Shown here piece by piece: positions 7,084 to 27,026 of a stretch of 37,704 nt of DNA. How positions within the stretch are numbered: the first letter of the stretch is position 1; each line of letters opens with the position of its first letter. The position numbers were made by a program, and so were the translations under genes. Below the pieces are notes generated by a model. It ran no database searches. It worked only from the letters and a program-made list of their open reading frames with translations, and was not told the origin of the DNA. The DNA lies in the NCBI GenBank assembly GCA_900110635.1, contig FOEK01000027.1, positions 1 to 37,704 on the forward strand, in the 5' to 3' direction. This DNA comes from Lachnospiraceae bacterium NE2001. GTDB taxonomy: Bacteria > Bacillota > Clostridia > Lachnospirales > Lachnospiraceae.

Positions 7084-7119
7084 CATTTAAGGATTATTTA
7101 ATAACTTATCTCGTATAAT
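7084..7119 (+). promoter_or_regulatory. Promoter P1 with 22-bp direct-repeat box
   Basis: A 22-bp box (7084-7105) made of two 11-bp direct repeats with TTTAAGG and TTTAATA cores is followed by 8 nt and the -10 hexamer TATAAT (7114-7119). There is no good -35; the box occupies that position. The same box and the same 8-nt spacing occur at 26428-26463 and 26991-27026. The arrangement is typical of activation by an OmpR/PhoB-type response regulator. Confidence 0.75.
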
Positions 7120-7178
7120 GCACCCATAAGATACAAAACAAAGCAATGGAAAAACAGAAAGGAAAGATTATAAATAAA

Positions 7179-8072
7179 ATGAAAACAAATAAGAAGTTTA
7201 TCAAGTCTCTCGTAGGAACTATGTTCATCGCAAGCATATCACTTATAAGCCTTACAGGTTGTTCCTTTGGATTCAGCTATACTTATGCCAACGCTAATAA
7301 GTATGAAGCAGGCGACCAGACCTTTGTCGAAGATATTGACACAATTAATATCGACTATCTGTCAGGAGATGTGAAGCTAACAAGCGGTTCCAAGAGCAAG
7401 ATCTTCGTTAAGGAGACAGCAAATAAAAACCTGGATGAAAGGCATATGGTTCACACCTGGGTTGATGGTTCAACTCTTTACGTAAAGTATTGCGAGTCCA
7501 CAAGCAATATAAACTTTAACAATATAGATAAGGAACTGGAGGTCATTATTCCAGAAGATCTCAAGCTGGAGGATCTCAAGGTTGAGGTTTCTTCCGCTGA
7601 TACAGATATCCAGTGTTCAGCAAAGAATATAGAGATTGAGGCTTCATCAGGAGATGTTACACTCACGCAGAGTGGTGACAGTGACTGTATCGCTATTGAT
7701 ACTTCCTCTGGTAAGATTAATGCGACAGTAGAAAATGTTGAGACTATGAAGAATGAGGCCAGCTCTGGAAACATTAAGGTTGCGGGAGATTTCATCAAGG
7801 ATCTCACATCATCAACCTCCAGTGGAAATGCTGAATACTCACTGAAGACAGCACCTGAAAGCTCTGATATTTCGGCTTCTTCAGGCACAGTTAATGTAAA
7901 TGTTCCAGCAGACTCTGATCTTAAGGCATCATTTGATGTATCAAGTGGCGAGATCAGCTACGAACTTCCTTTCACAAAGGATGATAATTCCTACGTTTGT
8001 GGAAAGGGAACAAACAAGATGAGTATCGAGACTTCATCTGGAGATATCAACATCAATAAATTAGACAATTAG
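7179..8072 (+). CDS. DUF4097-type beta-repeat lipoprotein
   Basis: A membrane-anchored lipoprotein of about 297 residues. The signal peptide ends in the lipobox LTGC, with Cys about residue 28 from this start. The mature part is a repetitive right-handed beta structure in which SSG recurs every 15-25 residues (IEASSGDVTL, DTSSGKINA, NEASSGNIKV, DVSSGEISY, ETSSGDINI), as in DUF4097 adhesin-like proteins. I prefer the ATG at 7179 because it gives a normal lipoprotein signal and has GGAAAG upstream (spacing about 12 nt); the ATG at 7146 adds 11 residues but lacks a ribosome site. It faces the opposite way to its neighbours and has its own promoter P1, which shares a regulatory box with the exporter operon around 21-26 kb. 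Role unknown; envelope stress or sensing is likely. Confidence 0.85.
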   Translation: MKTNKKFIKSLVGTMFIASISLISLTGCSFGFSYTYANANKYEAGDQTFVEDIDTINIDYLSGDVKLTSGSKSKIFVKETANKNLDERHMVHTWVDGSTLYVKYCESTSNINFNNIDKELEVIIPEDLKLEDLKVEVSSADTDIQCSAKNIEIEASSGDVTLTQSGDSDCIAIDTSSGKINATVENVETMKNEASSGNIKVAGDFIKDLTSSTSSGNAEYSLKTAPESSDISASSGTVNVNVPADSDLKASFDVSSGEISYELPFTKDDNSYVCGKGTNKMSIETSSGDININKLDN

Positions 8073-8116
8073 TTAGAGTTGTGTTGTAGACACACATTTC
8101 ATACCTTCCCCATAAC

Positions 8117-8155
8117 AAAGGCACCAGTTTACCTAAACGGTAGACTGGTGCCTTT
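8117..8155. terminator. Bidirectional terminator between convergent genes
   Basis: AAAGGCACCAGT/ACTGGTGCCTTT stem extended by an internal TTACC/GGTAG pairing, with A-rich and T-rich flanks on both sides. It serves the lipoprotein gene from the left and the aminotransferase operon from the right. Confidence 0.9.
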
Positions 8156-8157
8156 TA

Positions 8158-9372
8158 TTATGAGAGAGCTTCGATGGAGGCTTTAATGATTTCGACTGCT
8201 TCATTGCAGTCGTTTTCGTCGATGATGAGTGGTGGAACCATACGGATGATGTGATCTCCGATTGCGGTTAGAAGCAGGTGTCTGTGAAGACATTCGTGCT
8301 TGACGTCCACACTATTTATTACGTCGTCAAACTCTACGCCCACCAGAAGTCCCTGTCCTCTTACTTCCTTAACGTGTGGAAGCTCCTTCAGTTTCTCCGC
8401 GAGATAACTTCCCATCTTCTTGGCATTTCCCGCAAGATTTCTGTCCAGCAGCTCACCTATTTCAGCAAGAGCCGCTGCGCAGCTTACAGGATGTCCGCCA
8501 AATGTTGTTCCATGTGAACCAGGTGTAAATGCCTTCGCCACCTCGGCGGTTGCACATATAGCACCAATTGGCATACCACCACCTAAAGCCTTCGCCATTG
8601 AAACTATATCTGGTTTTATGCCATAGTTCATATAACTCATCACGTTTCCTGTTCTACACCAGCCGGTCTGAACCTCATCGATCAGGAGAAGCATATCATT
8701 CTCGTCACAGAATTCTCTTAACCCCGTCATAAACTCGTAGGTTGCTGGATGCACTCCGCCCTCTCCCTGAACCGGTTCAATCATTATCGCAATAGTATTC
8801 TCTGTGCAGGCATCCTTAAACGCCTGGAGATCATTATATGGTGCGTATGAGAAGCCATAGGTCATAGGTCCAAATCCAATCTGGCATCCGTTATCCGGCT
8901 GACCAGTTGCGGACATAGCACCAAAGGTTCTTCCGTGAAATCCCATTTTAGCAGTAACGATATGGTACCTCTCTGGTCCGTATTTTTCCACGCCATACTT
9001 TCTGGCCATCTTGATCATGGCCTCATTCGCCTCTGTTCCTGAGTTCTGGAAGAATATCTTATCCATTCCAATAGTCGTACAAACCTTCTCAGCCAGAAGC
9101 GCCTGAGGAATAGTATATGGATAATTAAATGTATGCATTAGATCCTTGGTCTGACTAACAACTGCATCCACAACCTTTTCGTTACAGCTTCCTGCTGAGT
9201 TAACTGCGATACCAGCATAAAAATCCAGATATCTCTCACCCTTTTCATCATAGATATACTGATCCTTCGCAGTCTCAGCAAGAAAGTCATAGCGTTCATA
9301 GGTCTCAATCATATATTTATTAACTTTGTCCTTTATATCCTGTGCTGTATATCCTGTCTCTGCAAGTTTCAT
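8158..9372 (-). CDS. argD: Class III aminotransferase, acetylornithine-type
   Basis: A PLP-dependent aminotransferase of about 404 residues, closest in pattern to acetylornithine/succinyldiaminopimelate or ornithine transaminases. Visible are the PLP phosphate-binding NSGTEANE, the IMIEPVQGEGG segment, the cofactor aspartate in LLIDEVQTGWCRTG and the Schiff-base lysine in SMAKALGGGMP, then HGTTFGGHPVSC. The start at 9372 has AAGGA 8 nt upstream; the ATG at 9381 would be only about 1 nt from it. It is the last gene of an operon encoding an amino-acid ABC importer and is not in an arginine cluster, so it may act on the imported amino acid. The symbol argD is by family only. Confidence 0.85.
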   Translation of the reverse strand: MKLAETGYTAQDIKDKVNKYMIETYERYDFLAETAKDQYIYDEKGERYLDFYAGIAVNSAGSCNEKVVDAVVSQTKDLMHTFNYPYTIPQALLAEKVCTTIGMDKIFFQNSGTEANEAMIKMARKYGVEKYGPERYHIVTAKMGFHGRTFGAMSATGQPDNGCQIGFGPMTYGFSYAPYNDLQAFKDACTENTIAIMIEPVQGEGGVHPATYEFMTGLREFCDENDMLLLIDEVQTGWCRTGNVMSYMNYGIKPDIVSMAKALGGGMPIGAICATAEVAKAFTPGSHGTTFGGHPVSCAAALAEIGELLDRNLAGNAKKMGSYLAEKLKELPHVKEVRGQGLLVGVEFDDVINSVDVKHECLHRHLLLTAIGDHIIRMVPPLIIDENDCNEAVEIIKASIEALS

Positions 9373-9401
9373 ACTAATCATCCTTCTTTCTACTAAATTT
9401 T

Positions 9402-10061
9402 CTATTCCTCATAAAAATGAATATCATCCACTGTGATAAACCCTTTGATAAGCAGATACTGCTCTATAAGTTTAACTGAATCATTTATTCCCACCTTTTC
9501 GCTGTTCAGCGTCATATCGTAGTTCACTGGATTAGTCCAATAATTGCCGTGGGTATAATACTCATAATAATCTGCCCTGAACTTATCAGTCTTCTTGATA
9601 GTCGCATGTGCAACCTCTTTGGTCACCCCAAGATTCTTCATGGTTCTCTGAACACAGAACAATCTCGGAGCTTCGATATATACACTGACAACATTTGATT
9701 TATCCCGCAAAACATAGTCCGCACATTTACCTACAATTACACAGGACTCCTGTTCAGCAAGGTTCCGGATTATCTCACTTTGATATTCAAATAGCTTATC
9801 ATCTGACACAAACTTTTCATTTCTTGCTATATATCGCCTTGACCTCGGAAGTCCTCTCATCAGATTAGAAAAGCCGCCATTTGTTCTTATCTTCTCATTT
9901 ACCTCCTGGAACAGCTTCTCATCTAATCCGCTCATTTGACTGGCAAGTGTCAGAATTCGATTTTCGTAGCAATGTATTCCCAGATCCTTCGCCAGAATTG
10001 ACGCAATCTCTTTTCCGCCTGATCCAAAGCCTCTGGCAAAGGTTACAACAAATCTTTTCAT
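9402..10061 (-). CDS. Cytidylate kinase-like family protein
   Basis: A 219-residue P-loop-type protein of the cytidylate-kinase-like family (PF13189 type). It starts with FVVTFARGFGSGGKEIASILAKDLG, where GSGGKEIA is the nucleotide-binding loop, followed by a helix ending in ENRILTLAS; CVIVGKCADYVL is the conserved central strand. These proteins are distinct from true Cmk and their substrate is not established. GGAGG lies 9 nt before the start. It lies between the ABC ATPase gene (28 nt away) and the aminotransferase gene (29 nt away), so it is co-transcribed with amino-acid uptake genes. That placement is unusual and not explained by the family annotation. Confidence 0.85.
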   Translation of the reverse strand: MKRFVVTFARGFGSGGKEIASILAKDLGIHCYENRILTLASQMSGLDEKLFQEVNEKIRTNGGFSNLMRGLPRSRRYIARNEKFVSDDKLFEYQSEIIRNLAEQESCVIVGKCADYVLRDKSNVVSVYIEAPRLFCVQRTMKNLGVTKEVAHATIKKTDKFRADYYEYYTHGNYWTNPVNYDMTLNSEKVGINDSVKLIEQYLLIKGFITVDDIHFYEE

Positions 10062-10089
10062 CTAAAACCGCCTCCATATCAGTATCATT

Positions 10090-10830
10090 TTATCCAGCCA
10101 GATATCGGCTTAAGAATTCCCTGGTTCTCGGATTCTTCGGATTACTAAAAAGTTCCGAAGGAGGTGCATCCTCTGCCACATAGCCCCTGTCCATAAAGAT
10201 AGTTCTTGTTGATACGTCTCTGGCAAATGCCATCTCGTGTGTCACAATTATCATAGTGAGTCCCGTGGTTGCCAGCTCCTTCATGACATTTAACACCTCT
10301 CCCACCATCTCAGGATCCAGCGCCGATGTGGGCTCATCAAAGAGCAGCACTTCCGGATTCATACATAGGGATCTGGCGATGGCAACTCTCTGCTTCTGTC
10401 CACCTGACAGCTGGGCCGGCTTCGCATTTATATATGGTGCCATCCCCACCTCCTTCAGATGAGTGATAGCTCTGTCGAAGGCCTCTGCTTTCGAGATGTG
10501 CAGCACCTTTCTGGTACAGATCATACAGTTCTGAAGGACAGTCATATTGTTGAATAGGTTAAATGACTGAAATACCATACCAACCTTTGCGCGATACTCG
10601 TTGATCTCACGCTGAATGTCTCGCACCTCTTTTCCGTGATACATAACCTTTCCGGAGGTCTGACGCTCCAGCTTGTTGATGCATCTTAGAAGCGTTGATT
10701 TACCTGAACCAGAAGAGCCTACTATGCAGATGATCTCGCCAGCACCAACCTCGATATCTATTTTTCTGAGAACCTCGTGATCTCCAAAGGATTTACTAAG
10801 ATTCTGAACAGATATAACTGATTCTCCCAT
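10090..10830 (-). CDS. Polar amino-acid ABC importer ATPase
   Basis: A 246-residue GlnQ/HisP-type ATPase. Walker A GSSGSGKS near residue 38, Q-loop VFQSFNLF, signature LSGGQKQR, Walker [16 protein letters not shown], then the H-loop VTHEM. The C terminus ends in the usual [22 protein letters not shown] pattern. GGAGG lies 6 nt before the ATG. It is 11 nt after the permease gene and powers that permease. Confidence 0.95.
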
Positions 10831-10841
10831 AGCACGCCTCC

Positions 10842-11612
10842 TTAATCATTGTCCAAATATTCAACTGCGAGAGCATAGTCTTCCTTGCCCTTCATCTTCT
10901 TCTCAACAAGACCAAATATCTTATTGAATACGAAGCATAGAACAAAATATATAACTGCAATAACAAGATAACTCTCAAAGTATTTATAATAATTTCCACC
11001 TACTGTCTTTGCTGCCATAAACAGCTCCTGAACAGCTATAACATTTAACACCGATGTCATCTTAAGATTAGTGAGAAATGTATTCGTCATCTCTGGAATA
11101 ATATTCTGAAAGGCCTGAGGAAGCACTATATAAAACATAGTCTTCATAGGAGACATTCCCATAGCCCAGGCGCCTTCACGCTGTCCTAGATCGATGGAAC
11201 CGATACCACCTCTAACCGTCTCTGCCATATATGCACCGGTATTAAGAACTGTTACTAAGATACCTGCTACAACAGGTGTCAGATCAACACCAGCCTGTCT
11301 GATTCCGTAATATATGATCATCGCCTGAACGATCATTGGCGTATCACGGAAGATTTCTACATAGACAGTAGATACTGCCTTTAATAATCTTACAAGTGAT
11401 TTCTTAATTAACAGATCACCCTGATTTATCTTCAAATCCTGAATGATGCCTATAACATATCCAAGCACGAATCCCAGAAGTGTACCCAGCACTGAAATGT
11501 ATAGGGTAAGCCAGGTGCCTTCCAGAAACATGCTCAGGTATTTTTTAGTTAGAAATATCATCCATTCAAATGAATTAGTTGGATCAGTAATTGAAAATAG
11601 ACTAAATCCCAT
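10842..11612 (-). CDS. Polar amino-acid ABC importer permease
   Basis: A 256-residue HisM/GlnP-type permease. About five membrane helices are visible, including [21 protein letters not shown] near residue 35. The EAA loop reads [23 protein letters not shown] near residue 150, where the ATPase docks. GGGATGGGAT precedes the start, a weak ribosome site. It lies between the binding-protein gene (27 nt) and the ATPase gene, in the standard order for this importer class. No second permease is present, so it should act as a homodimer. Confidence 0.95.
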
Positions 11613-11639
11613 ATCCCATCCCAGCCTTTAATAGTTAGT

Positions 11640-12581
11640 TTATTCTGCTGCTGGCTGCTGTCCTATAACTGTGCTCATAAGCTCGTCCATAGCTGCCTTA
11701 TCATTCCAGCCGATAGCATCCATAGCGCCCTGCAGCTTATCTCTAAGTTCTGTATCGTTCTTCTTTGTTGCGATACATACATTTACCATTTCTTCATCAC
11801 CTGTGAAGGTGTCGTTCTCGTCAAGTGTAATGATCATCAGATCATCGTTTGTGAGCAGTGCTGACTGTGCAGTTGGAAGATCGATGATACATACATCAGC
11901 AACTCCATTTGAAACTGCCATAAAGCATTCAGAGGTTGTCTCATAGTTGCTGCCTGTCTCTGCTCCCTCAACCTGATCAAGAAGTGGAATCCATCCTGTA
12001 CCAAGCTGTGTTGTCAGCTTACAGCCTGTTCCGTTCAGCTCTGAAAGTCCCTTAACATTTGCATAAGGGCCATCCTTCTTAACTACGATACAGTTATCTC
12101 TGTAGTAGTAAGGTTCTGTAAATGAATACGACATCTCTCTTTCTGCGGTACGTCCCATACCTGCGATGATACAGTCATAATCACCTGCCTCCATTGAGAT
12201 ACCGATCGATGACCACTCAACCTTATGAATCTCAAGTTCCATTCCCAGTTCATCTGCCAGCTTCTGAGCTACTGCTACATCGTAGCCGTATGTGTAATAC
12301 TCAGAACCGTAAATCTGAACTGCCTTGCTTCCATCTGGGGTAGTTGCTTCATCCTGTGTCCAGTTAAATGGTGGATAAGCACATTCCATACCTACTCTTA
12401 GTACCCCGCCTTCCGCATCTGAACTTGTTCCTCCTTCAGTTGCCTCAGTTGCTTCTGTTGCCTCTGTAACTGCCGCCTCAGCAGTCTCCACTGTTTTTGT
12501 CTCCCCAGCACCGCATCCACTGAGCATCGTCACTGTCATAATTGCTGCTAACGATAAAGCTATCATATTCCTTTTCTTCAT
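11640..12581 (-). CDS. Amino-acid ABC importer substrate-binding lipoprotein
   Basis: A lipoprotein of about 313 residues. The signal peptide ends in the lipobox LSGC, followed by a Thr/Glu/Ala-rich linker (VTEATEATEATEGG), then an SBP_bac_3 domain starting LRVGMECAYPPFNWTQ and containing YDCIIAGMGRTAEREMSYSFTEPYY. The ATG at 12581 is preferred (GGAGG 7 nt upstream); the ATG two codons earlier is too close. It is first in the operon SBP-permease-ATPase-kinase-like-aminotransferase. The ligand is probably a polar or basic amino acid; it cannot be fixed from sequence. Confidence 0.93.
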   Translation of the reverse strand: MKKRNMIALSLAAIMTVTMLSGCGAGETKTVETAEAAVTEATEATEATEGGTSSDAEGGVLRVGMECAYPPFNWTQDEATTPDGSKAVQIYGSEYYTYGYDVAVAQKLADELGMELEIHKVEWSSIGISMEAGDYDCIIAGMGRTAEREMSYSFTEPYYYRDNCIVVKKDGPYANVKGLSELNGTGCKLTTQLGTGWIPLLDQVEGAETGSNYETTSECFMAVSNGVADVCIIDLPTAQSALLTNDDLMIITLDENDTFTGDEEMVNVCIATKKNDTELRDKLQGAMDAIGWNDKAAMDELMSTVIGQQPAAE

Positions 12582-12629
12582 AATCATTCCTCCTTCTCGT
12601 CACCCTGTGATGACGCTATACTAAACAGA

Positions 12630-12671
12630 AAAGGCGCTGTCCGAAACTTTTTAGGTTTCAGCAGCGCCTTT
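12630..12671 (-). terminator. Terminator between PucR gene and ABC operon
   Basis: Stem AAAGGCGCTG/CAGCGCCTTT with an internal GAAAC/GTTTC extension, followed on the minus strand by TTTTCTGTTTAG. It closes the pucR-like transcript about 80 nt after its stop. Being only about 50 nt before the binding-protein start, it leaves little room for that operon's promoter, so an attenuator role is an alternative. Confidence 0.75.
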
Positions 12672-12753
12672 GCATAGTCCGCATTTTAGGCATTTTACTA
12701 TTTTATTTCAACGTACATTCTGCACATTCTTCATGGACACTTTGCACATTCCT

Positions 12754-13950
12754 TTATAAAAACATAAATCTTTTAACGAGAATGCAGTTGATCAGATCCA
12801 GGTATTCCATGTAATCATTTAGTTCTATTTCCAGAAGTTCCTCTATCTTTTCTATTCTGTTCAGAAGAGTGTTTCTGTGGATGAATAGAGCCTCCGCAGT
12901 TCTCACAGTATTAAAACCATTCATATAATATGTCAGCAGGGTATCCTCAAGATACGAGCCGTTGGCACTATCATAATTCTCCAGCCGCTCCAGCTTATTA
13001 TTGCAGTAATCGAGAATCTCCCTCTGATTATCTCCGTGGAACATATATTTATATATGCCCATGGTGCTCACGCTAAGAACCTTCTTGTGGGATGGATTAG
13101 GAAGCTGGTCCTTCTTAGGGATCAGACTCTTCGCCTCCTGGTAGCTCTGGCCATATTTACCAGGATCAGTATAGGCAGGTCCCAGGATACAGGTACTCTG
13201 AATAGACTCACTGAATAACGGATTAGTATCCAGACGCCTAAGCACCTTCTCTATCTCATGCTCCACCTCTTTATCTTCCCTGGCTTCAAAAAGAAGAACA
13301 AACTTATTCAGGAAACGCATAAACATAGGGTGCCCTTCCATCTTCATGACCTCCTGATTCAGGCAGTTGGCGTAGTATTCATAAATGTGATCATCCTGTT
13401 CCAGATTAACCCCGTATTTCCTATCTACTACGATAATGCCAACTCTTTGCGGCTTGCTGAAATCCAGACCAAACTGACCCGATATCTTCTCTACATAGCG
13501 ATCATTTACGTCATATCCAAACAGCAGATTGTAGAGATAGTCCCCGGTTCTCTTATTAATTATATCCGTCTCTGTGATAAGATTTCCTACGCTCTGAGAG
13601 ATGTCCACAAAGGAAGCACCCTTCCACCTGACATAGAAAAACGGCAGTTCCAGTTCGTCAGCGTGTTTTAAGAGTTTCTCGGGAATATCTTCTCTATCAT
13701 CAATAACCGAAATACCAAGGCCTGATATTCCCAGCTCTACCAATTCCTCCATAGCACGCTCAACCTCATCAAAATCAAAGCGCACATAGTCCACCACAAT
13801 AAGAGCAAAGTTGCCCTGATTCATATGGTCGGCGTAAGGCTTTGTCTGTACCAGGTAAACCCAGGAAACCACTCTATTCAGGCCAGCCTCGCCCGCCACC
13901 AGTTCAACTCCGTCTAACTTAAGATTCACAATATCTCTACATGTAACCAT
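12754..13950 (-). CDS. PucR family transcriptional regulator
   Basis: A 398-residue regulator. Residues 1-125 match the PucR N-terminal domain (MVTCRDIVNLKLDGVELVAG, then VVSWVYLVQTKPYADHMNQG). A GGDEF-like middle domain follows, and the C-terminal 60 residues are a PucR-type helix-turn-helix (LLTYYMNGFNTVRTAEALFIHRNTLLNRIEKIEELL, split here over its two helices). Family members control purine or amino-acid catabolism genes in response to small ligands. GAGGAG is 6 nt before the ATG. Its position directly upstream of the importer/aminotransferase operon, in the same direction, makes that operon the likely target. Confidence 0.9.
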   Translation of the reverse strand: MVTCRDIVNLKLDGVELVAGEAGLNRVVSWVYLVQTKPYADHMNQGNFALIVVDYVRFDFDEVERAMEELVELGISGLGISVIDDREDIPEKLLKHADELELPFFYVRWKGASFVDISQSVGNLITETDIINKRTGDYLYNLLFGYDVNDRYVEKISGQFGLDFSKPQRVGIIVVDRKYGVNLEQDDHIYEYYANCLNQEVMKMEGHPMFMRFLNKFVLLFEAREDKEVEHEIEKVLRRLDTNPLFSESIQSTCILGPAYTDPGKYGQSYQEAKSLIPKKDQLPNPSHKKVLSVSTMGIYKYMFHGDNQREILDYCNNKLERLENYDSANGSYLEDTLLTYYMNGFNTVRTAEALFIHRNTLLNRIEKIEELLEIELNDYMEYLDLINCILVKRFMFL

Positions 13951-13968
13951 ACAAAACTCCTCTCGGTT

Positions 13969-14008
13969 ATATGTAACTTTAGGATTATCTCCTTGTAAAA
14001 TTACATAT
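13969..14008. repeat. Inverted repeat between relA-like and pucR-like genes
   Basis: ATATGTAA (13969-13976) and TTACATAT (14001-14008) are 8-nt inverted arms 24 nt apart. They span the end of the RelA-domain gene and the pucR ribosome-site region. It could be a regulator site or a weak RNA hairpin; there is no U-tract. Confidence 0.4.
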
Positions 14009-14984
14009 CATTTTGAAATCTCGACAAATGCTCGAAAGGCAGGATCTGCCTGCCACGGAAGAGTCCGCAGCCATCATTTATCAGCTGATTGTTAAATGCT
14101 TTAAACATATTTACATCTATCGTTGAAAGGTCCAGCTGTTGCAGCTTGATCAGTCTCTCATAGGCCTCATCGAAGCATTTGCATTCTCCCTCCGGAATCA
14201 TATCTCTCTTTGACCGATTCTCCTCCTGCTGCTTCTCATAGCCGAAATGATTTGCACTGCCAATCTCAGCCAGATCGTCCATATCCTTGGTCCGAAGCTG
14301 CACCTCCGTATAGCATCTTGCAAAGTTATCGTAAAATGTTATATGCAGCGACTGGTATCCCGAAGAACGCGGAGTCTCAACATAATCCCTATAGTATGAA
14401 CGAATATTATCAGAAAGTGATTCTGACACACTCCTGCCAGATAAACCAGAAAGCTCTGCCGTGAAGCCTCTTTCTTCCAGAAAGCCAGGGATAACATTTG
14501 CAATCTCATATAGATACTTTATTTCTTCCGATTCCCTGTTTTCTTCCTCAGACACGTGGCACTGAGGAAGCGATATCACAATACGATAAGCTATCAGATC
14601 CCTGAAGAAGCTCAGGTTATTCTTTATCTCAGCCTCGCTGGGATACCTCTGGTTCTCCATATAGTAATCGTGGATATACTCTAGTATGTAACCATTGAAC
14701 TTCTCCTCCGCACGGATCAGAGACTTAATCCTACCCTTAAATGTAAATGCCAGGAACGGATACTTCTCGGTCATATACATATAGAACTCCTTGATTCTAT
14801 TGGACTGGGAAGTCAGGAAATCCGCATGTTCCAGAAGCTCAATAATCTGTATCAAAAAGTTACTGTGCGCCAGATCTATCTGATTGTGTGTCTTTATGGC
14901 ATCCTCTTTAAGGTCCGAAGAATAATGCAGCAGAATCTTAAGCACCGTATCGCCCGAATATAAATAATCATTTAACGTAATCAT
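14001..14984 (-). CDS. RelA/SpoT-domain protein (putative alarmone synthetase)
   Basis: A 327-residue stand-alone protein with a RelA_SpoT nucleotidyltransferase domain in its centre: FKGRIKSLIRAEEKF near residue 80, FFRDLIAYRIV near 127, SSGYQSLHITFYD near 210 and TEVQLRTKDMDDLAEIG near 230. These correspond to the R-x-K, D-x-x-x-x-R-I/V, GY-x-SLH and E-x-Q-x-R-T blocks of (p)ppGpp synthetases. No HD hydrolase, TGS or ACT domain is present. The N-terminal 75 residues look helical and are not recognised. AAAGGA precedes the start by 7 nt. It is longer than the usual small alarmone synthetases (about 210-260 residues), so activity and product need testing. Confidence 0.85.
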   Translation of the reverse strand: MITLNDYLYSGDTVLKILLHYSSDLKEDAIKTHNQIDLAHSNFLIQIIELLEHADFLTSQSNRIKEFYMYMTEKYPFLAFTFKGRIKSLIRAEEKFNGYILEYIHDYYMENQRYPSEAEIKNNLSFFRDLIAYRIVISLPQCHVSEEENRESEEIKYLYEIANVIPGFLEERGFTAELSGLSGRSVSESLSDNIRSYYRDYVETPRSSGYQSLHITFYDNFARCYTEVQLRTKDMDDLAEIGSANHFGYEKQQEENRSKRDMIPEGECKCFDEAYERLIKLQQLDLSTIDVNMFKAFNNQLINDGCGLFRGRQILPFEHLSRFQNDM

Positions 14985-18210: not shown

Positions 18211-18230
18211 ACTTTTTTCCTCCTACGAAG

Positions 18231-19364: not shown

Positions 19365-19403
19365 TCCACCTGTTGCTTCAACTATGTATCAAGGGAAATA
19401 GGA

Positions 19404-20819
19404 TTACGGAAGAAATATGGTGACCTCTGTGACATTTTCATTCACTCGCATTCTGATATCTCCTCCAAGCTTACGAGCTATGAGACGTGACTCATAAAGT
19501 CCAATACCATGTCCCTTCACTCCAGAACTATTAGAACCCCTCCACAAGCTATTAAACACAAAGGATACCTCTGACTCTGGAAGGGTCTCACCATTATTAG
19601 CTACCGTGATAAAATGTCCCTCATCATTCTTCTTCATTGAGAGCGTAATGCCTGTTCCATCTCCATACTTTATGGCATTATCCATAAGCTGCCTCAAGAT
19701 TCTGCAAACTCCGGTAAAGTCACTATTTATCAGCGGATTACCCTCTGCCTTTATCTCGAAAGGTATACGATTCATCTTGAGTCTATTTGAGTATTCTTCC
19801 AGGATATATTCCTCAATCTTCTTCCTGTAAAATGCCTCAACCTTCGGATCATAATCGAAGATTGCAGTTGTACCCTCCTCCATTGCACTGGATACAAGAG
19901 TCTCAATCTCGACAGCATTTTTCTTTATCTTTTCTGCCAGCTCAGCGTCCTTTTCATTTACTTTTCCATCAGCTGAATATAGACCTGTCGCAATTGCTTC
20001 AGCCAGAAGCTTTATACTGGCTGTTGGAGTTTTTATGCCATGCACCATAGTGGTCACGAACTTCTGACGGTCCACAGTAAACCTCCTGATAGTTTCACGG
20101 TCACTTTCCAGCTTATCCGAAAGCATATTCATTCCCCAGATATATCTTCCAAAAAACTTGTTTTTTGTTTCCGGAAGCTTCTCTGTCATTTCACCCTTTG
20201 AAAGTCTCTCTGGATATTCGGAAAGCTTGTTAAATGGGGCAATGATCCGAGTACTGATCCACAGAGTATATAAGAACATTGCTATAACAATAACAGCAAT
20301 ACTAACATTAAGGATAATACGAATCGGAGCATTTGAGGCATCAGCAAAATGATATTCTACCAGCCCTATAGATTTCCCATGAATATCGTCACCAGTTTCT
20401 GAGCTAAGGTTAGGGGTATTAAGCTCAGTTATTATTGTTCCACCACTATGATACTCCTTATCAACTGCCTTTTCAGTAACCCCTTCAGGTTCCAAAGGAT
20501 CAAAATCTCCATTTGGATAGATATATATATTCATATACTGAGGACAGGCATCCTTTCCATAGATACTTTCCCACTCATCCTTCTTATCATAGAAAATCGA
20601 CTGCGCTAATTGGCTGGGAATAACACCATAAGGATACAGATCAGAAGTAAATGTAATGCTTGTAAGCCTCTCTTCTATCTCCTGAGTTATACGATTTGTC
20701 ACCACAACTCTCTCGCTTTGACTCTTCTGAGACATTTTAGACATAAGAATATTAACGGTTATAAGCATAGCCGCAAGGAAGAGAATCAGTATTAAAAAGT
20801 ATCTCCAAAGTTTTTTCAA
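19404..20819 (-). CDS. Sensor histidine kinase
   Basis: A 471-residue membrane kinase that starts at TTG (20819); GAGGTG is exactly 5 nt upstream. One helix at about 8-27, an extracellular loop of about 140 residues, a second helix near 172-192 and a HAMP-like linker precede the dimerisation domain. The phospho-acceptor is in FVTTMVHGIKTPTASIKLL, a variant of the usual SHELRTP box. The N box is LMDNAIKYG, the G1 box is ANNG where DxG is usual, and the G2 box is GHGIGLYESRLIA. It partners the response regulator upstream. A 100-bp repeat is inserted between the two genes. Being in an operon with an FtsX exporter suggests sensing of an envelope-active compound. Confidence 0.9.
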   Translation of the reverse strand: MKKLWRYFLILILFLAAMLITVNILMSKMSQKSQSERVVVTNRITQEIEERLTSITFTSDLYPYGVIPSQLAQSIFYDKKDEWESIYGKDACPQYMNIYIYPNGDFDPLEPEGVTEKAVDKEYHSGGTIITELNTPNLSSETGDDIHGKSIGLVEYHFADASNAPIRIILNVSIAVIVIAMFLYTLWISTRIIAPFNKLSEYPERLSKGEMTEKLPETKNKFFGRYIWGMNMLSDKLESDRETIRRFTVDRQKFVTTMVHGIKTPTASIKLLAEAIATGLYSADGKVNEKDAELAEKIKKNAVEIETLVSSAMEEGTTAIFDYDPKVEAFYRKKIEEYILEEYSNRLKMNRIPFEIKAEGNPLINSDFTGVCRILRQLMDNAIKYGDGTGITLSMKKNDEGHFITVANNGETLPESEVSFVFNSLWRGSNSSGVKGHGIGLYESRLIARKLGGDIRMRVNENVTEVTIFLP

Positions 20820-20830
20820 GTTTACACCTC

Positions 20831-20930
20831 ATCAGTCAGCTTCGCTGACAGCTTGGTCTCGTCTCCGACTCGGGCAAACGGCCTAAGATGTGTGCCACCG
20901 GCACACAGGCCGTCCCTCAAGGGGAAGCCA
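20831..20930. repeat. Palindromic mobile repeat between regulator and kinase genes
   Basis: A 100-bp GC-rich element with several hairpins: GTCAGC/GCTGAC at the kinase end, GTGTGCC-acc-GGCACAC in the middle, and CCCTCAAGGGG near the regulator end. It is bounded on both sides by the 9-bp direct repeat TTACACCTC (20822-20830 and 20931-20939), like a target-site duplication. On the minus strand that repeat reads GAGGTGTAA and contains the regulator's stop codon and the kinase's ribosome site. Similar GGCTTCCCCTT...GTCAGC...GATGAGG elements are common in Firmicutes; part of GATGAGGTG may be intrinsic to the element. Confidence 0.75.
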
Positions 20931-21611
20931 TTACACCTCTCCGAATTGATAGCCCACTTTATATACTGTCTTAATGTACTTCGGTTTCTTGGGATCATCC
21001 TCTATCTTATCTCGGAGCCAACTGATATATACGCTAAGCGAAGATAGTTCACTGAAGCAGGACTCGCCCCACACGTTATCGAAGATAGTCTCCTTACGAA
21101 GAGCCTTACCACGGTTCTCCATGAGATAAACTAGTAGGTCAAACTCCTTGCCCATAATATCTATCTTTTCATTATTCTTATAAACCGTTCTGGCACCCAC
21201 ATCCACGGTGATCCCATCTACAGATAGAATCTGCTTATCCTCGGGCGCTTCATATGTGCGTCGCATTATTGCCTTGATTTTTGAGGTAAGTACAGGTATT
21301 GATACAGACTTATCAACATAGTCATCTGCTCCTATTTCTATGCCCAGGATCATACTTTCGTCATCATTCTTGGCACTCATTATTATAACTGGCATGCTTC
21401 GGGTTTTACGTATCTCAGTAAGTGTCTCAAATCCATCCTTGCCAGGAAGCATAACGTCAAGAAGAAGGAGCTTAAACACCTCCTTCTCCAAAAGCTCAAG
21501 CCCTTCCTCTGCACTTCCAGTGAGTGTAACTGACCATCCCTCACGTCTGAGGAAATCAGCAATCAGACCACCTAGATCTTCGTTATCTTCAATTATAAGA
21601 ATATCTGTCAT
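20931..21611 (-). CDS. OmpR-family response regulator
   Basis: A 226-residue two-component regulator. Receiver domain: acidic pair in LIIEDNEDLGG, phospho-aspartate in LLLDVMLPGKDG, conserved Lys in YVDKSVS. Winged-helix DNA-binding domain: KEFDLLVYLMENRGKALRKE, then SVYISWLRDKIEDDPKKPKYIKTV with the family's typical end. The ATG at 21611 is preferred (GGAG 9 nt upstream) over an upstream TTG at 21626. It follows the Ntn-hydrolase-like lipoprotein gene by 89 nt. It is the best candidate to bind the three 22-bp direct-repeat boxes in this window, because OmpR-type proteins bind tandem repeats with about 11-bp spacing. Confidence 0.92.
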   Translation of the reverse strand: MTDILIIEDNEDLGGLIADFLRREGWSVTLTGSAEEGLELLEKEVFKLLLLDVMLPGKDGFETLTEIRKTRSMPVIIMSAKNDDESMILGIEIGADDYVDKSVSIPVLTSKIKAIMRRTYEAPEDKQILSVDGITVDVGARTVYKNNEKIDIMGKEFDLLVYLMENRGKALRKETIFDNVWGESCFSELSSLSVYISWLRDKIEDDPKKPKYIKTVYKVGYQFGEV

Positions 21612-21700
21612 AGTATTTATCTCCAACCATTAAGATCCTAGATCAAATAACTCTCTCAGGCAAATTATATAATAATACTATAAATGCTAAAAGTGTTCTT

Positions 21701-23134
21701 TTAATACTCTCCGATATCGGTGAATACTACGTCATCGGTTGGACCTGTCTCAGGTGTAAATGCAACCTGAATTCTTCCAGTATGGTAATCTACAATTATC
21801 ATCTGAGCTGTTCCAGGATTTCTCACATTTTCAACCTTTGCCTCGCCATTTTCCTGCCCCTGATTAACCTTTTCCTGTGTAAGAACAGTCTTCAGTTCAC
21901 CAACGGTAAATTTGTCCTTCGAACTGATCCAATCATTATATTTATTAAATCTAACAGCATTACCAACTTGATACATAGATTCATCATTTCCTTTTGTCGC
22001 AAAGGAATTTACAACACAAAAGCTGTCAGGGTTATCCCAGTTCAGATTATCAACAAGAGGAGTATCTGCATCTCTCAGTATTGAGAATGCTCCCTTATTC
22101 TCCTGATGCTGCTTAACAGCATTTTCTGCACAGTAGGTTCCATTTTCATCAGAAATAACTATATTGTTGCTCCAGGTATAGTTCGGACTATTCTCTACCA
22201 TAAAGTTTCCCACTTCCTCTGCCGTAGTAAACTCTTCCATAGCATATCTAAGATCGTAGGAATAACATCTCCTGCCCTCATAGGAATAAGGTTCACCACT
22301 ACCCGCATCTAAAAGAGCCGCAAATACACCATCATCATTTATTGCAGAAACAAGATTTTCCCATCCGATAAATGATATACCAGTAAATGATCTATCACCC
22401 TCCTTCGCGTGTATTACCGCATGCATTTTACACATCTGATTGTCACCTCCCAAATCCCAGTCCAGAAGGCGAACCATCACTCTGTCACCTGTAGCTGTCT
22501 TGCTTCCCCAAAGCGAAAGTGCTGAACAGGCTGTACTTCTGAGTGCCTCAGGAATAAAATTAAATGTTACAGCTTCCTCGTAGCTTATATGGCCATCCTC
22601 ATTAAAGCCATGAACGCCGCCTGAAAGCTCTGTAGCATATGCATCTATCTCCTGCCAGTATTCCTCCTGAAGTGTGGCGGAAAGATAGGATACTCTCTCC
22701 CACACCGGATCAAAATCATCTGTAAGAGCAGGAAATGCAAAATAAATATTCTCATATACATATGGTTCAATCGTTTCATGGAAATCCGGAAATGCTTCTA
22801 ATACTGTACTTGCATAAGCCTTTCCAACTTCTGTTCCTGCATGATTCTCATAATCCAAAGTTACATCGTAGTAATGCTCCATCTTCTTTATGTGACAGGC
22901 CCCATCGGCTGATTCAAACTCAGCGAGGCATTTGTCAGGGATTCCATCGTCGTCATACTTTATAGGATTTTCTACATAAGTATCAGATACTGCGGCAAGG
23001 ACACTTTCCGGCTGGTCCGGGAAGACAAATCCGTCGTAGGTCTCAGACTGACCGCAGGCGGTAAGTGTGCTTACCAGCATAACGGAGGCAGCCACCGCCA
23101 CAGCTTTTGTTTTTATATAGTTCTTTATATTCAT
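21701..23134 (-). CDS. Ntn-hydrolase-like (C45/C59-type) lipoprotein
   Basis: A 477-residue lipoprotein (lipobox LTAC, Cys about residue 27) whose central part resembles N-terminal-nucleophile amidohydrolases of the acyl-CoA:6-APA acyltransferase (C45) and linear-amide (C59) group. TACSALSLWGSKTATGDRVM followed by RLLDWDLGG matches the pattern Cys...G...R...D around the nucleophile; FIGWENLVSAINDDGVFAALL and SNNIVISDENGTYCAEN also fit the fold. In C45/C59 enzymes the Cys becomes N-terminal by processing; here it would sit at about residue 205 behind a 200-residue lipid-anchored domain. It lies between an FtsX/LolD exporter and a two-component system in one operon. Substrate unknown; hydrolysis of an amide antibiotic, peptide or bile-type conjugate is conceivable. 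Confidence 0.7.
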   Translation of the reverse strand: MNIKNYIKTKAVAVAASVMLVSTLTACGQSETYDGFVFPDQPESVLAAVSDTYVENPIKYDDDGIPDKCLAEFESADGACHIKKMEHYYDVTLDYENHAGTEVGKAYASTVLEAFPDFHETIEPYVYENIYFAFPALTDDFDPVWERVSYLSATLQEEYWQEIDAYATELSGGVHGFNEDGHISYEEAVTFNFIPEALRSTACSALSLWGSKTATGDRVMVRLLDWDLGGDNQMCKMHAVIHAKEGDRSFTGISFIGWENLVSAINDDGVFAALLDAGSGEPYSYEGRRCYSYDLRYAMEEFTTAEEVGNFMVENSPNYTWSNNIVISDENGTYCAENAVKQHQENKGAFSILRDADTPLVDNLNWDNPDSFCVVNSFATKGNDESMYQVGNAVRFNKYNDWISSKDKFTVGELKTVLTQEKVNQGQENGEAKVENVRNPGTAQMIIVDYHTGRIQVAFTPETGPTDDVVFTDIGEY

Positions 23135-23175
23135 ATCAATTCACTCTTTCTTATCATTTACTATTTGGGAAGTCT

Positions 23176-23940
23176 TTACCAGTCGCGTTCCTGCAGCCAG
23201 TTGCGGAGCTTACGCTCTCTTACCGGAATATCATCCTCTGACTCCAGCTTTCCAAGCACAAGCTCGCCCTGGATATTTCCGTCAACAAGAAAGATGACTC
23301 TCTCACTGCAACAGGCAACCTTCTCGCTGTGGGTTACCATCATTACTGATGTACCTGCACGGTTTGCATTTACCAGTTCACTGATAACCTCCATAGATGC
23401 CTTCTGATTAAGAGCTCCTGTTGGCTCGTCTGCAAATATCATCTTAGGACTGTTAATGAGTGATCTGCAAAGACAGGCACGCTGCAGCTGTCCACCGGAT
23501 ACCTCTGTTATAAATCTGTCTGCAGTCTCAATTATTCCAAGTCTTCTCATAAGTGCCTCTGCATCCTTATTTACCTCTGCACGAGATTTCTGCTTTGCCT
23601 GATATCCAGGAAGTACAATATTGTCCATAATATTCAGCTTCTTCATCATATACATCTGCTGGAACACAAAGCCCATCTTATTTAGTCTGGTCTTAGCCAT
23701 ACCCTTTCTGTCCAGTTTGGATATGTCTACTCCATCAAAGAATACATTTCCGGCGGTCGCATTATCCATTCCGCTTACTGTATATAGAAGAGTCGATTTA
23801 CCGGAACCACTTGGTCCCATAATTGATACAAACTCACCCTCCTCCATAGAAAAGTTCACATTCTGAAGCACATTGTTACTGTATTCATCTATGATATAGG
23901 TCTTGCACAGATCCTTAACTTCTAAAACTGTATTACTCAT
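23176..23940 (-). CDS. LolD/MacB-type ABC ATPase
   Basis: A 254-residue ATPase of the family that partners FtsX-like permeases. Walker A GPSGSGKS near residue 41, Q-loop VFQQMYMMKKL, signature VSGGQLQRA, Walker B MIFADEPTGALNQK, H-loop VTHSEKVA. It overlaps the permease gene by 8 nt. The C-terminal tail is slightly longer than usual. With the permease it should form a mechanotransmission-type exporter or antimicrobial-peptide detoxification pump. Confidence 0.95.
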   Translation of the reverse strand: MSNTVLEVKDLCKTYIIDEYSNNVLQNVNFSMEEGEFVSIMGPSGSGKSTLLYTVSGMDNATAGNVFFDGVDISKLDRKGMAKTRLNKMGFVFQQMYMMKKLNIMDNIVLPGYQAKQKSRAEVNKDAEALMRRLGIIETADRFITEVSGGQLQRACLCRSLINSPKMIFADEPTGALNQKASMEVISELVNANRAGTSVMMVTHSEKVACCSERVIFLVDGNIQGELVLGKLESEDDIPVRERKLRNWLQERDW

Positions 23941-26362
23941 TTCTAATCCTCCAAATCTCTATATTCCTAATCTTTCTAAGGGTAATAACCATAACAAATG
24001 CTATAAAAAGAGTTACTCCAATGACCCATACCAGAGAAAGCATAAATCCTTTTGTGAAACTAAAGCCCGTCATACCAAGTGCCGCCTTAAAGAACAGCCC
24101 CATCAAGCCACCCAGAACTGTTGGTGCAAAGATTATTGAGATAACAGCTCCTGCCACAAACAAAAGCATCATTCTTAGGAACTGCCATCCCTTGGCACTC
24201 CTGTCATCAAAGCCTGAACTAAGAAGAAGTGCTATCTCCGGCTCCTCATCTTTCATAAATATTGTCTGATACATTACTACCAGGAAACCAAGCACCGCTG
24301 CTACAACGACTATCATAAGATTTCGCATAAATGAGAAAAGCACATCGTACATTCCTAAAAATGCCTCTATTAATTCATCTGCAGAAATCATTTGATCCGG
24401 GAATAGTTTATCCAGTTTCTCGAGTTCTGCTGCCTTCTGAGAATCAGGTACATCCAGAGTGGAACCAATAAAATTCCAGGATTCAACAGATGCATCATCA
24501 AATTCTTTTGACATAATCACATCTTTAGTATTAGTGGCAGACAGTCTGTCAACAAAACCTGTGATTACAAATTCTTCCCGGATTTCATTAGTTCCGAGCC
24601 TGTCCTCATTATATTTGTCATATTCAATCGTTACTGAATCCCCAATATTCAGGTTATGATTCTCAGCCGTGAAATAATCTATCAGAACTTCATTTCTAAG
24701 CTTTGGATAAGCTCCACCCTCTCTTATAACCATCCCTTCCGGATCAAAGCCGAAATTGAGCATTACATTTTCCACTTCGTCGCCGAAAAGCATTTGAGCT
24801 GAATGCATTTTATCCAGCTCTATATAAAGAGCGATATCCTCCTCTCTCATAAGGTTGTCAAAATTATTCTTAAATATATCGCTTCGACCTGTATTTTGTG
24901 TTAGATTGCTATAATCTGAATCACTTAGATTTGGTGCGACATCCATAGTCTTAAATGAATAAAACTTATATAGAAATTCAGGACTTATTATGGATTCCCT
25001 CATCTGAATATTTGCGATCACTACACTGCTTCCTATGGTAAAAGCTATTAGCAGAAGTACATATCTCTTGAAATTACCAAAGATATCAGAGAGAGCCAGA
25101 TAAAGGGGCAGAGGCATCTTTCCTCTTCTGTTTAACTGAAAACGATCACTATGCTTTATTCTTTCTGATCTACTTTCTCCGTGAAGAACATCCATAACGG
25201 ATATCTTATTGATTCTCCTCATAGAAAGAAGAATAAACAGAATCACAAGTAGTGTGATCACAGCTGCCGAGATAAAAGCACCTATATAATCTACCGCTGA
25301 CAAGCTGTAGGATATATTATAGTAAAATGCTCCAATCAGCTTATCTCCTACTACTGCTCCAACTAAAGCACCGATAATTCCTCCAACTATCGAAAATGCT
25401 ATATACTTGGCAGCCACCAGCCATCTGAAGGATATTGAATCAGTTCCGAGAGCCTTCATTATTCCAAGCTCCCGCTCCTCCTTCTTTATCGCCGACCTGA
25501 TGGTAAAACCTATAGTAAAGAATACTATCAGAACCATGAACACACCGGTAATAGCGAGGATTAGTGTTACCAGTATTGCTACTAATGCACTGTTACCAAA
25601 TGTATGTCCATCCAAACCTAGGGTATAAAAATAATCATCATAAGTTTCATCCTTCGTTATCTTGGAAAGAATACTATTAACATCATCATTACTCATTTCA
25701 GTTTCAGTCTGAAATCCTAAAATTCCATATTTCTCAGGTGACTCTTTACTGATAAAATCGTAATCAGCGTCTGAAAGGATAAACCTTTCTATATTATCCT
25801 GTATAGGATCCCTGGTTATATAAGATATCTCAAACTCATATTTTTTACCATTCGGTGCTGTATAGAAGAAGGAATCACCCACCTTCAGTTTTTCCTGATT
25901 AGCATAGATGTAAGGAATTGCAATCTTGCCATTTTCCACATAGAAGGGCTTATTGTTAATATCATATACAAGGTTCATATTCCTTGGCTGCTTCATGAAG
26001 AAATGCAGTGCTGAGCCAAAGCTTTGATTAAGAGCATTGTAGTCAATTCCCTCATAATCAATATTGGTATAATCGAACTTTATACCTTCAGATTGTTCAA
26101 ATACTGCATCTGGATATAATTCTGTTAATAATTCTTCATATCGCTCCAGCTGTCCGTCCCTATCTCCCAGCAGCTGTGTGTAAACTATAAATGCAGCGTA
26201 AGGATTACATCTCTCCTGTGATACCCGCACTCCTCTAATATTTGCGATTAACAGAAGTGCACTAGCAGAGGTCAGAACTGATACCATTATCATAAAGAGA
26301 AGTATGATAACATTTAGTCCCTTGCTCTCCTTTAAGTCTTTTTTTATCATTCTGAAAAACAT
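23933..26362 (-). CDS. FtsX-like ABC permease
   Basis: An 809-residue permease with two FtsX domains. The first helix is at about residues 17-40, followed by a large extracellular region (about 45-255), three helices with the FtsX motif KKEERELGIMKALGTDS, a second helix group from about 440, a second extracellular region (about 470-680) and three C-terminal helices with PEIALLLSSGF. AGGAGA precedes the ATG. It is the first gene of the operon permease-ATPase-hydrolase-like lipoprotein-regulator-kinase, driven from P2. A perfect ATCATCG/CGATGAT inverted repeat (26378-26399) lies just before the ribosome site. Confidence 0.92.
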   Translation of the reverse strand: MFFRMIKKDLKESKGLNVIILLFMIMVSVLTSASALLLIANIRGVRVSQERCNPYAAFIVYTQLLGDRDGQLERYEELLTELYPDAVFEQSEGIKFDYTNIDYEGIDYNALNQSFGSALHFFMKQPRNMNLVYDINNKPFYVENGKIAIPYIYANQEKLKVGDSFFYTAPNGKKYEFEISYITRDPIQDNIERFILSDADYDFISKESPEKYGILGFQTETEMSNDDVNSILSKITKDETYDDYFYTLGLDGHTFGNSALVAILVTLILAITGVFMVLIVFFTIGFTIRSAIKKEERELGIMKALGTDSISFRWLVAAKYIAFSIVGGIIGALVGAVVGDKLIGAFYYNISYSLSAVDYIGAFISAAVITLLVILFILLSMRRINKISVMDVLHGESRSERIKHSDRFQLNRRGKMPLPLYLALSDIFGNFKRYVLLLIAFTIGSSVVIANIQMRESIISPEFLYKFYSFKTMDVAPNLSDSDYSNLTQNTGRSDIFKNNFDNLMREEDIALYIELDKMHSAQMLFGDEVENVMLNFGFDPEGMVIREGGAYPKLRNEVLIDYFTAENHNLNIGDSVTIEYDKYNEDRLGTNEIREEFVITGFVDRLSATNTKDVIMSKEFDDASVESWNFIGSTLDVPDSQKAAELEKLDKLFPDQMISADELIEAFLGMYDVLFSFMRNLMIVVVAAVLGFLVVMYQTIFMKDEEPEIALLLSSGFDDRSAKGWQFLRMMLLFVAGAVISIIFAPTVLGGLMGLFFKAALGMTGFSFTKGFMLSLVWVIGVTLFIAFVMVITLRKIRNIEIWRIRNE

Positions 26363-26427
26363 ATTCTATCTCCTGTTATCATCGAATAATAACGATGATT
26401 CTTTCGTATTTATCTGAGCTCGGTATC

Positions 26428-26463
26428 ACTATAACCTAAAACTTTTTAAAAAGTACTTAAAAA
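26428..26463 (-). promoter_or_regulatory. Promoter P2 with 22-bp direct-repeat box
   Basis: On the minus strand, box 26463-26442 (halves TTTTTAAGTAC and TTTTTAAAAAG), then 8 nt, then TATAGT (26433-26428). It drives the exporter/hydrolase/two-component operon and matches P1 and P3 in box, repeat period and spacing. Confidence 0.78.
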
Positions 26464-26506
26464 AAGATTATATTTTTAAAATATATTTGCGACAACAAAA
26501 AAATGA

Positions 26507-26526
26507 CGGTTGAGATCACTCAACCG
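26507..26526 (-). terminator. Terminator with the stop codon in its loop
   Basis: Stem CGGTTGAG/CTCAACCG with the 4-nt loop TGAT that contains the TGA stop of the small lipoprotein gene; ATTTTTTT follows after GTC. The left arm encodes the last residues of the protein. Confidence 0.85.
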
Positions 26527-26923
26527 CCATAATTTCGAAGGTGAATTTTCCTTCACTTGCTTCACCATCAGTTTCAATTATTAGATTTACATCTCCCTTT
26601 TCAAGGCCTTCTAATGTTGAATCAACACTCTCGCCTGCACCAACAGTGAAAAGCTCTTTCTTTCCGCCACCATTATCGTAATACACAGTAACATTTCCTT
26701 TATCAAGTGCACCTGTATATTTCATCTTATCTCCCGAAGACGCCTTGATCTTAAGCACCTTTGTACCATCAAATGTACTGAAGGTGTAGAAAGCATCATC
26801 TAAATCATTATGCTCTATCATCATAGTTCCTTTACCATGACTGGTATATGTACTGCATCCAGTAAGCGTAAAGCCGAGTGTCAGCATCATAAGAACTGCT
26901 AATAGTTTAAATCTCTTTTTCAT
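26516..26923 (-). CDS. Small lipoprotein, function unknown
   Basis: A 135-residue lipoprotein with signal peptide MKKRFKLLAVLMMLTLGFTL and lipobox LTGC. The mature part of about 110 residues is predicted all-beta and includes KIKASSGDKMKY and a C-terminal GKFTFEIMAVE strand; ASSGD echoes the repeats of the DUF4097 lipoprotein at 7179, but I would not call homology from that. It is transcribed alone from P3, which shares the 22-bp box with the exporter operon and the DUF4097 gene. A role alongside the exporter and two-component system is likely. Confidence 0.8.
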   Translation of the reverse strand: MKKRFKLLAVLMMLTLGFTLTGCSTYTSHGKGTMMIEHNDLDDAFYTFSTFDGTKVLKIKASSGDKMKYTGALDKGNVTVYYDNGGGKKELFTVGAGESVDSTLEGLEKGDVNLIIETDGEASEGKFTFEIMAVE

Positions 26924-26990
26924 TTCTCTGAACTCCTTTTCTCATAAATCCTTCACTTCATCTATAATAAACGTTTTTATCTTTATATGA

Positions 26991-27026
26991 AATATAATAC
27001 ATTTCTTATTAAGAAGTCCTTAAGAA
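26991..27026 (-). promoter_or_regulatory. Promoter P3 with 22-bp direct-repeat box
   Basis: On the minus strand, box 27026-27005 (halves TTCTTAAGGAC and TTCTTAATAAG), then 8 nt, then TATATT (26996-26991). It is the cleanest copy of the box and lies about 70 nt before the small lipoprotein start. Confidence 0.78.

Follow-up and report, generated by a model that had tools for sequence, protein, structure and literature searches.

Genes and promoter boxes of the window

We analysed a stretch of 37,704 nucleotides from Lachnospiraceae bacterium NE2001 (assembly GCA_900110635.1, contig FOEK01000027.1, positions 1 to 37,704), here called the window, in which three promoters carry a similar box: two 11-bp direct half-sites (22 bp), then 8 nt, then a -10 hexamer. 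An initial annotation of the window had placed these boxes ahead of the gene of a DUF4097 lipoprotein, an exporter/hydrolase/two-component operon and the gene of a 135-residue lipoprotein (LP135), and had read them as one regulon controlled by RR_A, the response regulator encoded in the middle operon. Its gene labels hold in domain searches, and the boxes with their -10 hexamers (7084-7119 on the forward strand, 26463-26428 and 27026-26991 on the reverse strand) lie exactly where they had been read (Table 1). The single regulon is not borne out, and the letters of the boxes suggest three sister systems with one box each.

Table 1 Promoter boxes, genes and terminator-like hairpin of the window.
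Feature	Position	Strand	Remarks
Class-B box CATTTAAGGAT TATTTAATAAC	7084..7105	+	ahead of DUF4097 gene
-10 TATAAT	7114..7119	+	8 nt past DUF4097 box
DUF4097 (toastrack) lipoprotein	7179..8072	+	PF13349 5.7e-25
HK_A, histidine kinase	19404..20819	-	PF02518, PF00512
RR_A, OmpR/PhoB-type response regulator	20931..21611	-	PF00072 + PF00486; recognition helix SELSSLSVYISWLRDKIE
C45-family autoproteolytic acyltransferase/hydrolase, lipoprotein-like N-terminus	21701..23134	-	NF040521 1.2e-24
ATP_A, ABC ATPase	23176..23940	-	best model LolD, below cut-off
PERM_A, 809-residue FtsX-type ABC permease	23933..26362	-	PF02687 5.3e-15
-10 TATAGT	26428..26433	-	of exporter operon
Class-A box TTTTTAAGTAC TTTTTAAAAAG	26442..26463	-	ahead of exporter operon
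Terminator-like hairpin	26503..26530	-	between LP135 and exporter promoter
LP135, 135-residue lipoprotein	26516..26923	-	no Pfam family
-10 TATATT	26991..26996	-	of LP135
Class-C box TTCTTAAGGAC TTCTTAATAAG	27005..27026	-	ahead of LP135

RR_A combines a receiver domain with a winged-helix Trans_reg_C domain, the architecture of the OmpR/PhoB type, and its full-length relatives in the PDB are RegX3, MtrA and KdpE. The only PDB match found by sequence for PERM_A at an E value of 0.01 or better is YtrF (3.9e-07), and the C45 hydrolase reaches 87.3 bits against NF040521 (cut-off 85). The product of 7179-8072 matches the LiaG model (1.6e-29) with 103 bits, under the cut-off of 285 bits. For its start the ATG at 7179, preceded by the ribosome-site-like AAAGGAAAG, looks likelier than the alternative ATG at 7146. 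The exporter/LP135 region holds two terminator-like sites against 0.3 in shuffled sequence, and as one of them follows LP135 ahead of the exporter promoter, gene and operon are probably transcribed separately and can be controlled apart.

Written as a 20-mer, a spacer and the -10 hexamer, the three sites read TTTAAGGATTATTTAATAAC-ttatctcg-TATAAT (DUF4097), TTTAAGTACTTTTTAAAAAG-ttttaggt-TATAGT (exporter operon) and CTTAAGGACTTCTTAATAAG-aaatgtat-TATATT (LP135). The pattern fitted on these three sites matches the window three times, with 0.02 matches expected in shuffles, which is circular for the window itself, so that the weight rests on sites elsewhere. When boxes were located by their 20-mer score alone, a -10 hexamer with at least five of the six letters of TATAAT stood at a spacing of 8 in 54 of 58 boxes and at any other spacing in at most 7 of 58; three of 61 rows had been dropped for having no box upstream of the called start, and the boxes used to train the score had originally come from a pattern that included the -10, which makes the test partly circular. 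The tandem 11-bp half-sites occupy the position of the -35, as in promoters of OmpR/PhoB-type regulators. That there is no other -35, as had been claimed, agrees with the best -35 match at the boxes, which has only 2-4 of 6 letters, but at the exporter operon it needs qualification, as a generic scan gave a sigma-70-like site, TTGTCG-17-TATAAT (10/12), at 26495-26467 on the reverse strand, directly upstream of the exporter box. Shuffles of the region give 3.8 sites of this kind (standard deviation 1.9) and the region itself has 6; the site is a possible second, basal promoter of the operon.

Occurrence of the box in the genome, the genus and the family

The three boxes are real and conserved. 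Using the reversed pattern as specificity control, we found 13 sites against 1 with at most three mismatches in the 3.72-Mb genome to which the window belongs (G000). The best of them are the three of the window (0 mismatches), C25:57051 and C54:1543 (1 mismatch), and C14:57759 and C17:74372 (2 mismatches); the six sites with exactly three mismatches, among them C59:53477, were not counted as real. The sites on contigs C25, C14 and C17 lie directly ahead of ABC ATPase or FtsX-permease genes of modules with a response regulator and a histidine kinase, and C54:1543 lies ahead of the gene of a 363-residue alpha/beta-hydrolase. The LP135 box and the exporter box on C25 are identical over the 20-bp core.

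In 61 genomes of the genus, own genome included, 45 sites with at most one mismatch were found in 26 genomes (reversed pattern: 2). Exporter-module genes follow 29 of them, LP135 and hydrolase genes five each, and DUF4097 or its operon three; the remaining three lie between two genes (G004), before a 235-residue open reading frame (ORF; G040) and before no called gene (G052). At the same threshold 200 genomes of the family, own genome included, gave 34 sites in 28 genomes (reversed pattern: 1). Six belong to the own genome. The other 28 come from outside the genus; FtsX-ABC genes stand after 26 of these and other genes after one, and the last lies behind a regulator/kinase pair at a contig end. 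Most sites of the pattern thus precede two-component/FtsX-ABC-exporter modules.

Sister modules and letter classes

Besides module A of the window, the own genome carries the sister modules B (C17), C (C25) and C2 (C14), and, with looser boxes, A2 (C40), A3 (C59) and D (C25 near 128-135 kb, and C14). A2 (G000:C40:149634, box TTAAAGATTTTTTAAGAA) and A3 (G000:C59:156189, box TTTAAGAGTTTCTTAAAGAT) are again C45-hydrolase/exporter/two-component modules; the classes with looser boxes were left out of the letter-class test below.

Every class-A exporter operon of the genus with intact upstream DNA has the box (9/9), with the -10 ending 25-69 nt ahead of the called start; in the tenth genome, G031, the contig begins inside the ATPase gene. 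The OmpR/PhoB-type direct repeats in the -35 position that the initial annotation had described are thus conserved at orthologues. In G007 the operon is split into a permease-ATPase, a C45 and a regulator-kinase unit, and since each of these has its own box, control of module A through the box is strongly evidenced. Self-regulation of the module by its encoded regulator RR_A is likely from this arrangement. In class B, 16 of 17 rows have a box immediately ahead of the leading transporter gene, and the exception (G017) has it inside an over-long called ORF. In class C this holds for 19 of 20 rows, the exception (G059) having the box before a hydrolase gene that precedes the class-C ATPase gene.

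The same holds for relatives of PERM_A from a scan of named genomes, mostly rumen metagenome genomes labelled Lachnospiraceae, Oscillospiraceae, Eubacterium, Ruminococcus or Acetatifactor. All 21 loci, eight of them in genomes already in the genus set, have a box with at most four mismatches before the exporter genes, 16 at first pass and five after over-long ORF starts or an ATPase-first order had been allowed for. These five are L306 and L314, with the exact letters of the window inside over-long called ORFs, and L310, L311 and L315, with TTTAAAGATTTTTTAAGAAA ahead of an ATPase-first operon.

The exporter boxes fall into three letter classes, with the consensus TTTAARGACTTTTTAAAAAG for A, TTTAATGATTRTTTAATAAT for B and CTTAAGGACTYCTTAATAAS for C. 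In a training set of 9 A, 19 B and 19 C boxes, to which the class-B boxes of G017, G027 and G028 had been added by hand, leave-one-out assignment was correct for 47 of 47 with identical copies left out, and class-C2 boxes score as class C. The boxes of the window belong to one class each. The exporter box scores 28.6 bits as A, 14.7 as C and 9.0 as B; the LP135 box 34.0 as C, 21.3 as A and 9.8 as B; and the DUF4097 box 28.0 as B, 17.2 as A and 14.2 as C.

The regulators of the three classes form single clades (support 100/99 for RR_A, 98/99 for RR_B and 98/83 for RR_C). Comparison of 10 class-A, 24 class-B and 22 class-C regulators gave the recognition helices SSL[SG]VY[IV]SWLRDKI for A, variable at two positions only, QTLTVHIK.LR.KI for B and STLTVHIRWLREK[LI] for C. 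At one position class A has Y where B and C have H, and two positions further on the residue is S in A, K in B and R in C; both positions presumably face the DNA, as in PhoB. Each class of box goes with a clade of regulators that has a recognition helix of its own.

G052:C9:13497 (L042) is a class-C box with no called gene after it, and the DNA downstream looks like what is left of a class-C ATPase gene; RR_C was not found in this genome, which is 73% complete.

Regulators of LP135, the hydrolase and the DUF4097 lipoprotein

Homologues of LP135 were found in 17 of the 61 genus genomes (14 of 18 matches were used in the alignment, leaving out two stop-flagged, one partial and one other). Six of the 17 genomes have the box before the gene with 0-2 mismatches, and in the other 11 the best matches have 7-10 mismatches, much like those in shuffles. 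RR_C is present at at least 77% identity in all six boxed genomes and at at least 72% in none of the 11 others (Fisher's exact test 8e-5, uncorrected for kinship). G056, which has both RR_A and RR_C, has class-C letters in its LP135 box (30.6 bits against 13.1 for A). Class-C boxes also precede hydrolase genes in five genomes, all with RR_C (at least 72%), one of these boxes heading a class-C operon; the hydrolases were found through their boxes, and homologues without a box were not sought.

This bears directly on the single regulon, in which all three promoters would be under the regulator at 20931-21611. RR_A is encoded in the operon of one of the boxes and occurs, at at least 75% identity, in three of the six genomes with a boxed LP135, which is what such a regulon would have in its favour; the other three (G027, G029 and G042) have the boxed gene without RR_A at that identity, as do G019 and G029 for a boxed DUF4097, and no LP135 was found in seven of the ten genomes with RR_A. 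G027 and G042 are incomplete (89% and 72%), and G029 is listed as 100% complete. The latter carries both lipoprotein genes boxed together with RR_C and RR_B; its best matches to RR_A and the C45 hydrolase have 60% and 43% identity, and the permease of that module is 29% identical to that of the window. As the three boxes also belong to three letter classes, we consider a single regulon very unlikely.

DUF4097 homologues were found in 17 genus genomes, of which 14 could be tested (contig ends excluded G042, G047 and G056). The box lies directly before the gene in G000 and G004, and a B-like box stands before the operon (sigma/anti-sigma/DUF4097 genes, or a 273-residue ORF plus DUF4097) in G007, G019, G029 and G043. 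All six prefer B over A, by 10.8 bits in G000, 5.0 in G004, 13.5 in G007, 1.8 in G019, 19.7 in G029 and 13.9 in G043, and in G027 the sigma/anti-sigma/DUF4097 genes follow 142 nt after the class-B ATPase gene. RR_B is present in all seven of these linked genomes (in G007 as a 143-residue piece at a contig end) and RR_A in four. RR_B also occurs in five of the seven genomes in which no box or class-B link of DUF4097 was found (the seven being G003, G008, G017, G025, G031, G053 and G059), so that its presence alone is no proof of the link, which is drawn from the box letters and the gene context in G027.

One regulon or three

We consider it likely that three paralogous OmpR/PhoB-type regulators, each with its own two-component/FtsX-ABC-exporter module, recognise one of the boxes each. 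The initial annotation had tied both orphan lipoproteins to the exporter of the window. Both do seem to have an exporter partner, which is most likely a sister exporter encoded elsewhere in the genome.

The mechanism that we infer, as regards binding, direction of regulation, degree of insulation and signals alike, takes the OmpR/PhoB family as its model: the phosphorylated regulator would occupy the pair of 11-bp half-sites, arranged head to tail where a -35 would otherwise stand, and would recruit RNA polymerase to the -10 eight bases downstream. RR_A of the window would then most likely autoregulate the local exporter-hydrolase-kinase operon through the class-A box. RR_B (C17) would most likely govern the exporter of its module as well as the DUF4097 lipoprotein, in both cases through boxes of class B, and RR_C (C25) its own exporter, LP135 and the alpha/beta-hydrolase through class-C boxes; RR_C2 (C14), a near relative of RR_C, perhaps shares the class-C control. 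Going by family names, the modules may detect membrane- or wall-active compounds and expel them, lipoproteins and hydrolases acting as accessories at the surface; the combination of FtsX-type exporters, two-component partners and lipoprotein accessories would fit envelope-active peptides or lipids. The best reading of the letters would be three parallel envelope-stress regulons with a CiaR-like box, the letters having diverged together with the regulators.

Several observations weigh against three separate regulators. The LP135 homologues that have a box are at the same time the most similar ones (at least 50% identity), which confounds the match to RR_C with kinship, and RR_B correlates with the LP135 box too (5/6 against 0/11). 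The absence of a box or class-B link in half of the 14 testable DUF4097 genomes, five of the seven having RR_B, has been given above; the DUF4097 box of G019 prefers B by no more than 1.8 bits, and position 6, a T in 18 of 19 class-B exporter boxes of the genus, is G in the DUF4097 box of the window (in B-like modules of other genera G is the usual form). No boxed exporter lies in the stretches analysed around RR_B-HK_B of G042 and of G044 or around RR_C-HK_C of G056; contig ends barred this test for RR_B in G019, G039 and G043 and for the RR_C contig of G009. The sigma-70-like site beside the exporter box could allow basal transcription without an activator.

Moreover, no more than a few letters separate the classes, and a sister regulator may also bind boxes of another class. 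In its extreme form this would give an overlapping network in which each regulator is able to drive all three promoters and the letters merely tune affinity. The TTAA-type cores, the 11-bp period and the 8-nt spacing are common to all classes, C2 boxes score as C, and a second box near DUF4097 in G004 does not fit neatly, being intermediate between A and B (27.3 against 23.2). It appears nevertheless as if such a network is rather unlikely, since letters and helices remain class-specific across the sampled genomes, and since in G000 and G004, where RR_A, RR_B and RR_C occur together, the boxes of the orphan targets retain single-class letters. A separate global regulator of the OmpR family that reads all boxes, leaving the module regulators to do something else, could be recruited from the many OmpR-like candidates in the genome (72 at first look with RR_A as query, 48 scored); we consider it extremely unlikely, given that the box adjoins regulator/kinase/exporter modules in the genus and in other genera and that its letters follow the clade of the module regulator.

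On the most far-reaching reading, the genome would hold at least six sister modules (A, A2, A3, B, C and C2, plus the D copies) of one architecture and with letters matched to the helices. Whether these are natural, letter-coded insulated regulons, so that orphan lipoproteins and hydrolases could be assigned by letters alone and the 20-kb stretch would interleave three specificities, is in our view evenly balanced. They offer a test set for the joint divergence of duplicated response regulators and their sites, with few helix residues to swap (H to Y, R or K to S), and by tying orphan envelope lipoproteins of Lachnospiraceae to particular exporters they suggest what these proteins may do. Promoters of one window may carry a common box without answering to the same regulator.

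Comparison with known systems

The type of box is already known. CiaR of the streptococcal CiaRH system uses the direct repeat NTTAAG-N5-TTTAAG upstream of the -10, which the search pattern places 10 nt past the second hexamer, and has the recognition helix VVEVYVSKVRKKL (PMC3091779, consulted in part). This helix shares V-Y-V-S-x-x-R-x-K with the class-A regulators, RR_A having I for the second V, whereas H-I-K or H-I-R stands in place of Y-V-S in the sister classes B and C. The boxes described here have the N5 repeat, but with 11 nt to the -10 and TTTAAA, TTTAAT or CTTAAT as second hexamer they fall outside the CiaR pattern. The targets described in the sections of PMC3091779 consulted include small RNAs, and exporter modules are not mentioned there. 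RR_1586 of Clostridioides difficile is likewise of the OmpR family, recognises the 11-bp direct repeat DRTTAAGNWWW, also of the TTAAG type, and binds upstream of its own operon too (PMC6222199, consulted in part). Its targets, unlike those found here, include sporulation, transport and peptidase genes, and the part of PMC6222199 consulted mentions neither a fixed spacing to the -10 nor sister classes. In the literature searches made, no described regulon consisting of sister classes with orphan lipoproteins was found.

At the level of the module, the pairing of a two-component system with an FtsX-type ABC transporter is shared with BceRS-BceAB and related peptide-resistance modules, in which the two-component system lies beside the transporter under its presumed control. 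The window module differs in its permease of about 800 residues, with YtrF as only PDB match by sequence, and in the C45 hydrolase in the operon.

The DUF4097 lipoprotein resembles LiaG in its family and its match to the LiaG model, but its score is under the cut-off and the genes of several relatives lie behind a sigma/anti-sigma pair. This arrangement, a sigma-70-type factor followed by a zf-HC2 anti-sigma-like gene, was seen in G027 (L317), G003 (L319), G059 (L320), G019 (L321), G007 (L249) and G043 (L358), the domains being tested in G027 and the other five judged by eye, and it suggests two layers of envelope-stress control. In G004 an extra perfect box (L059:9962-9995) lies downstream of DUF4097 with no ORF behind it and a terminator-like hairpin 93 nt past the -10. 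It could be a small-RNA promoter of the CiaR type or a leftover, the case for the former being tempered by a comparable hairpin at the corresponding position behind DUF4097 in the window.

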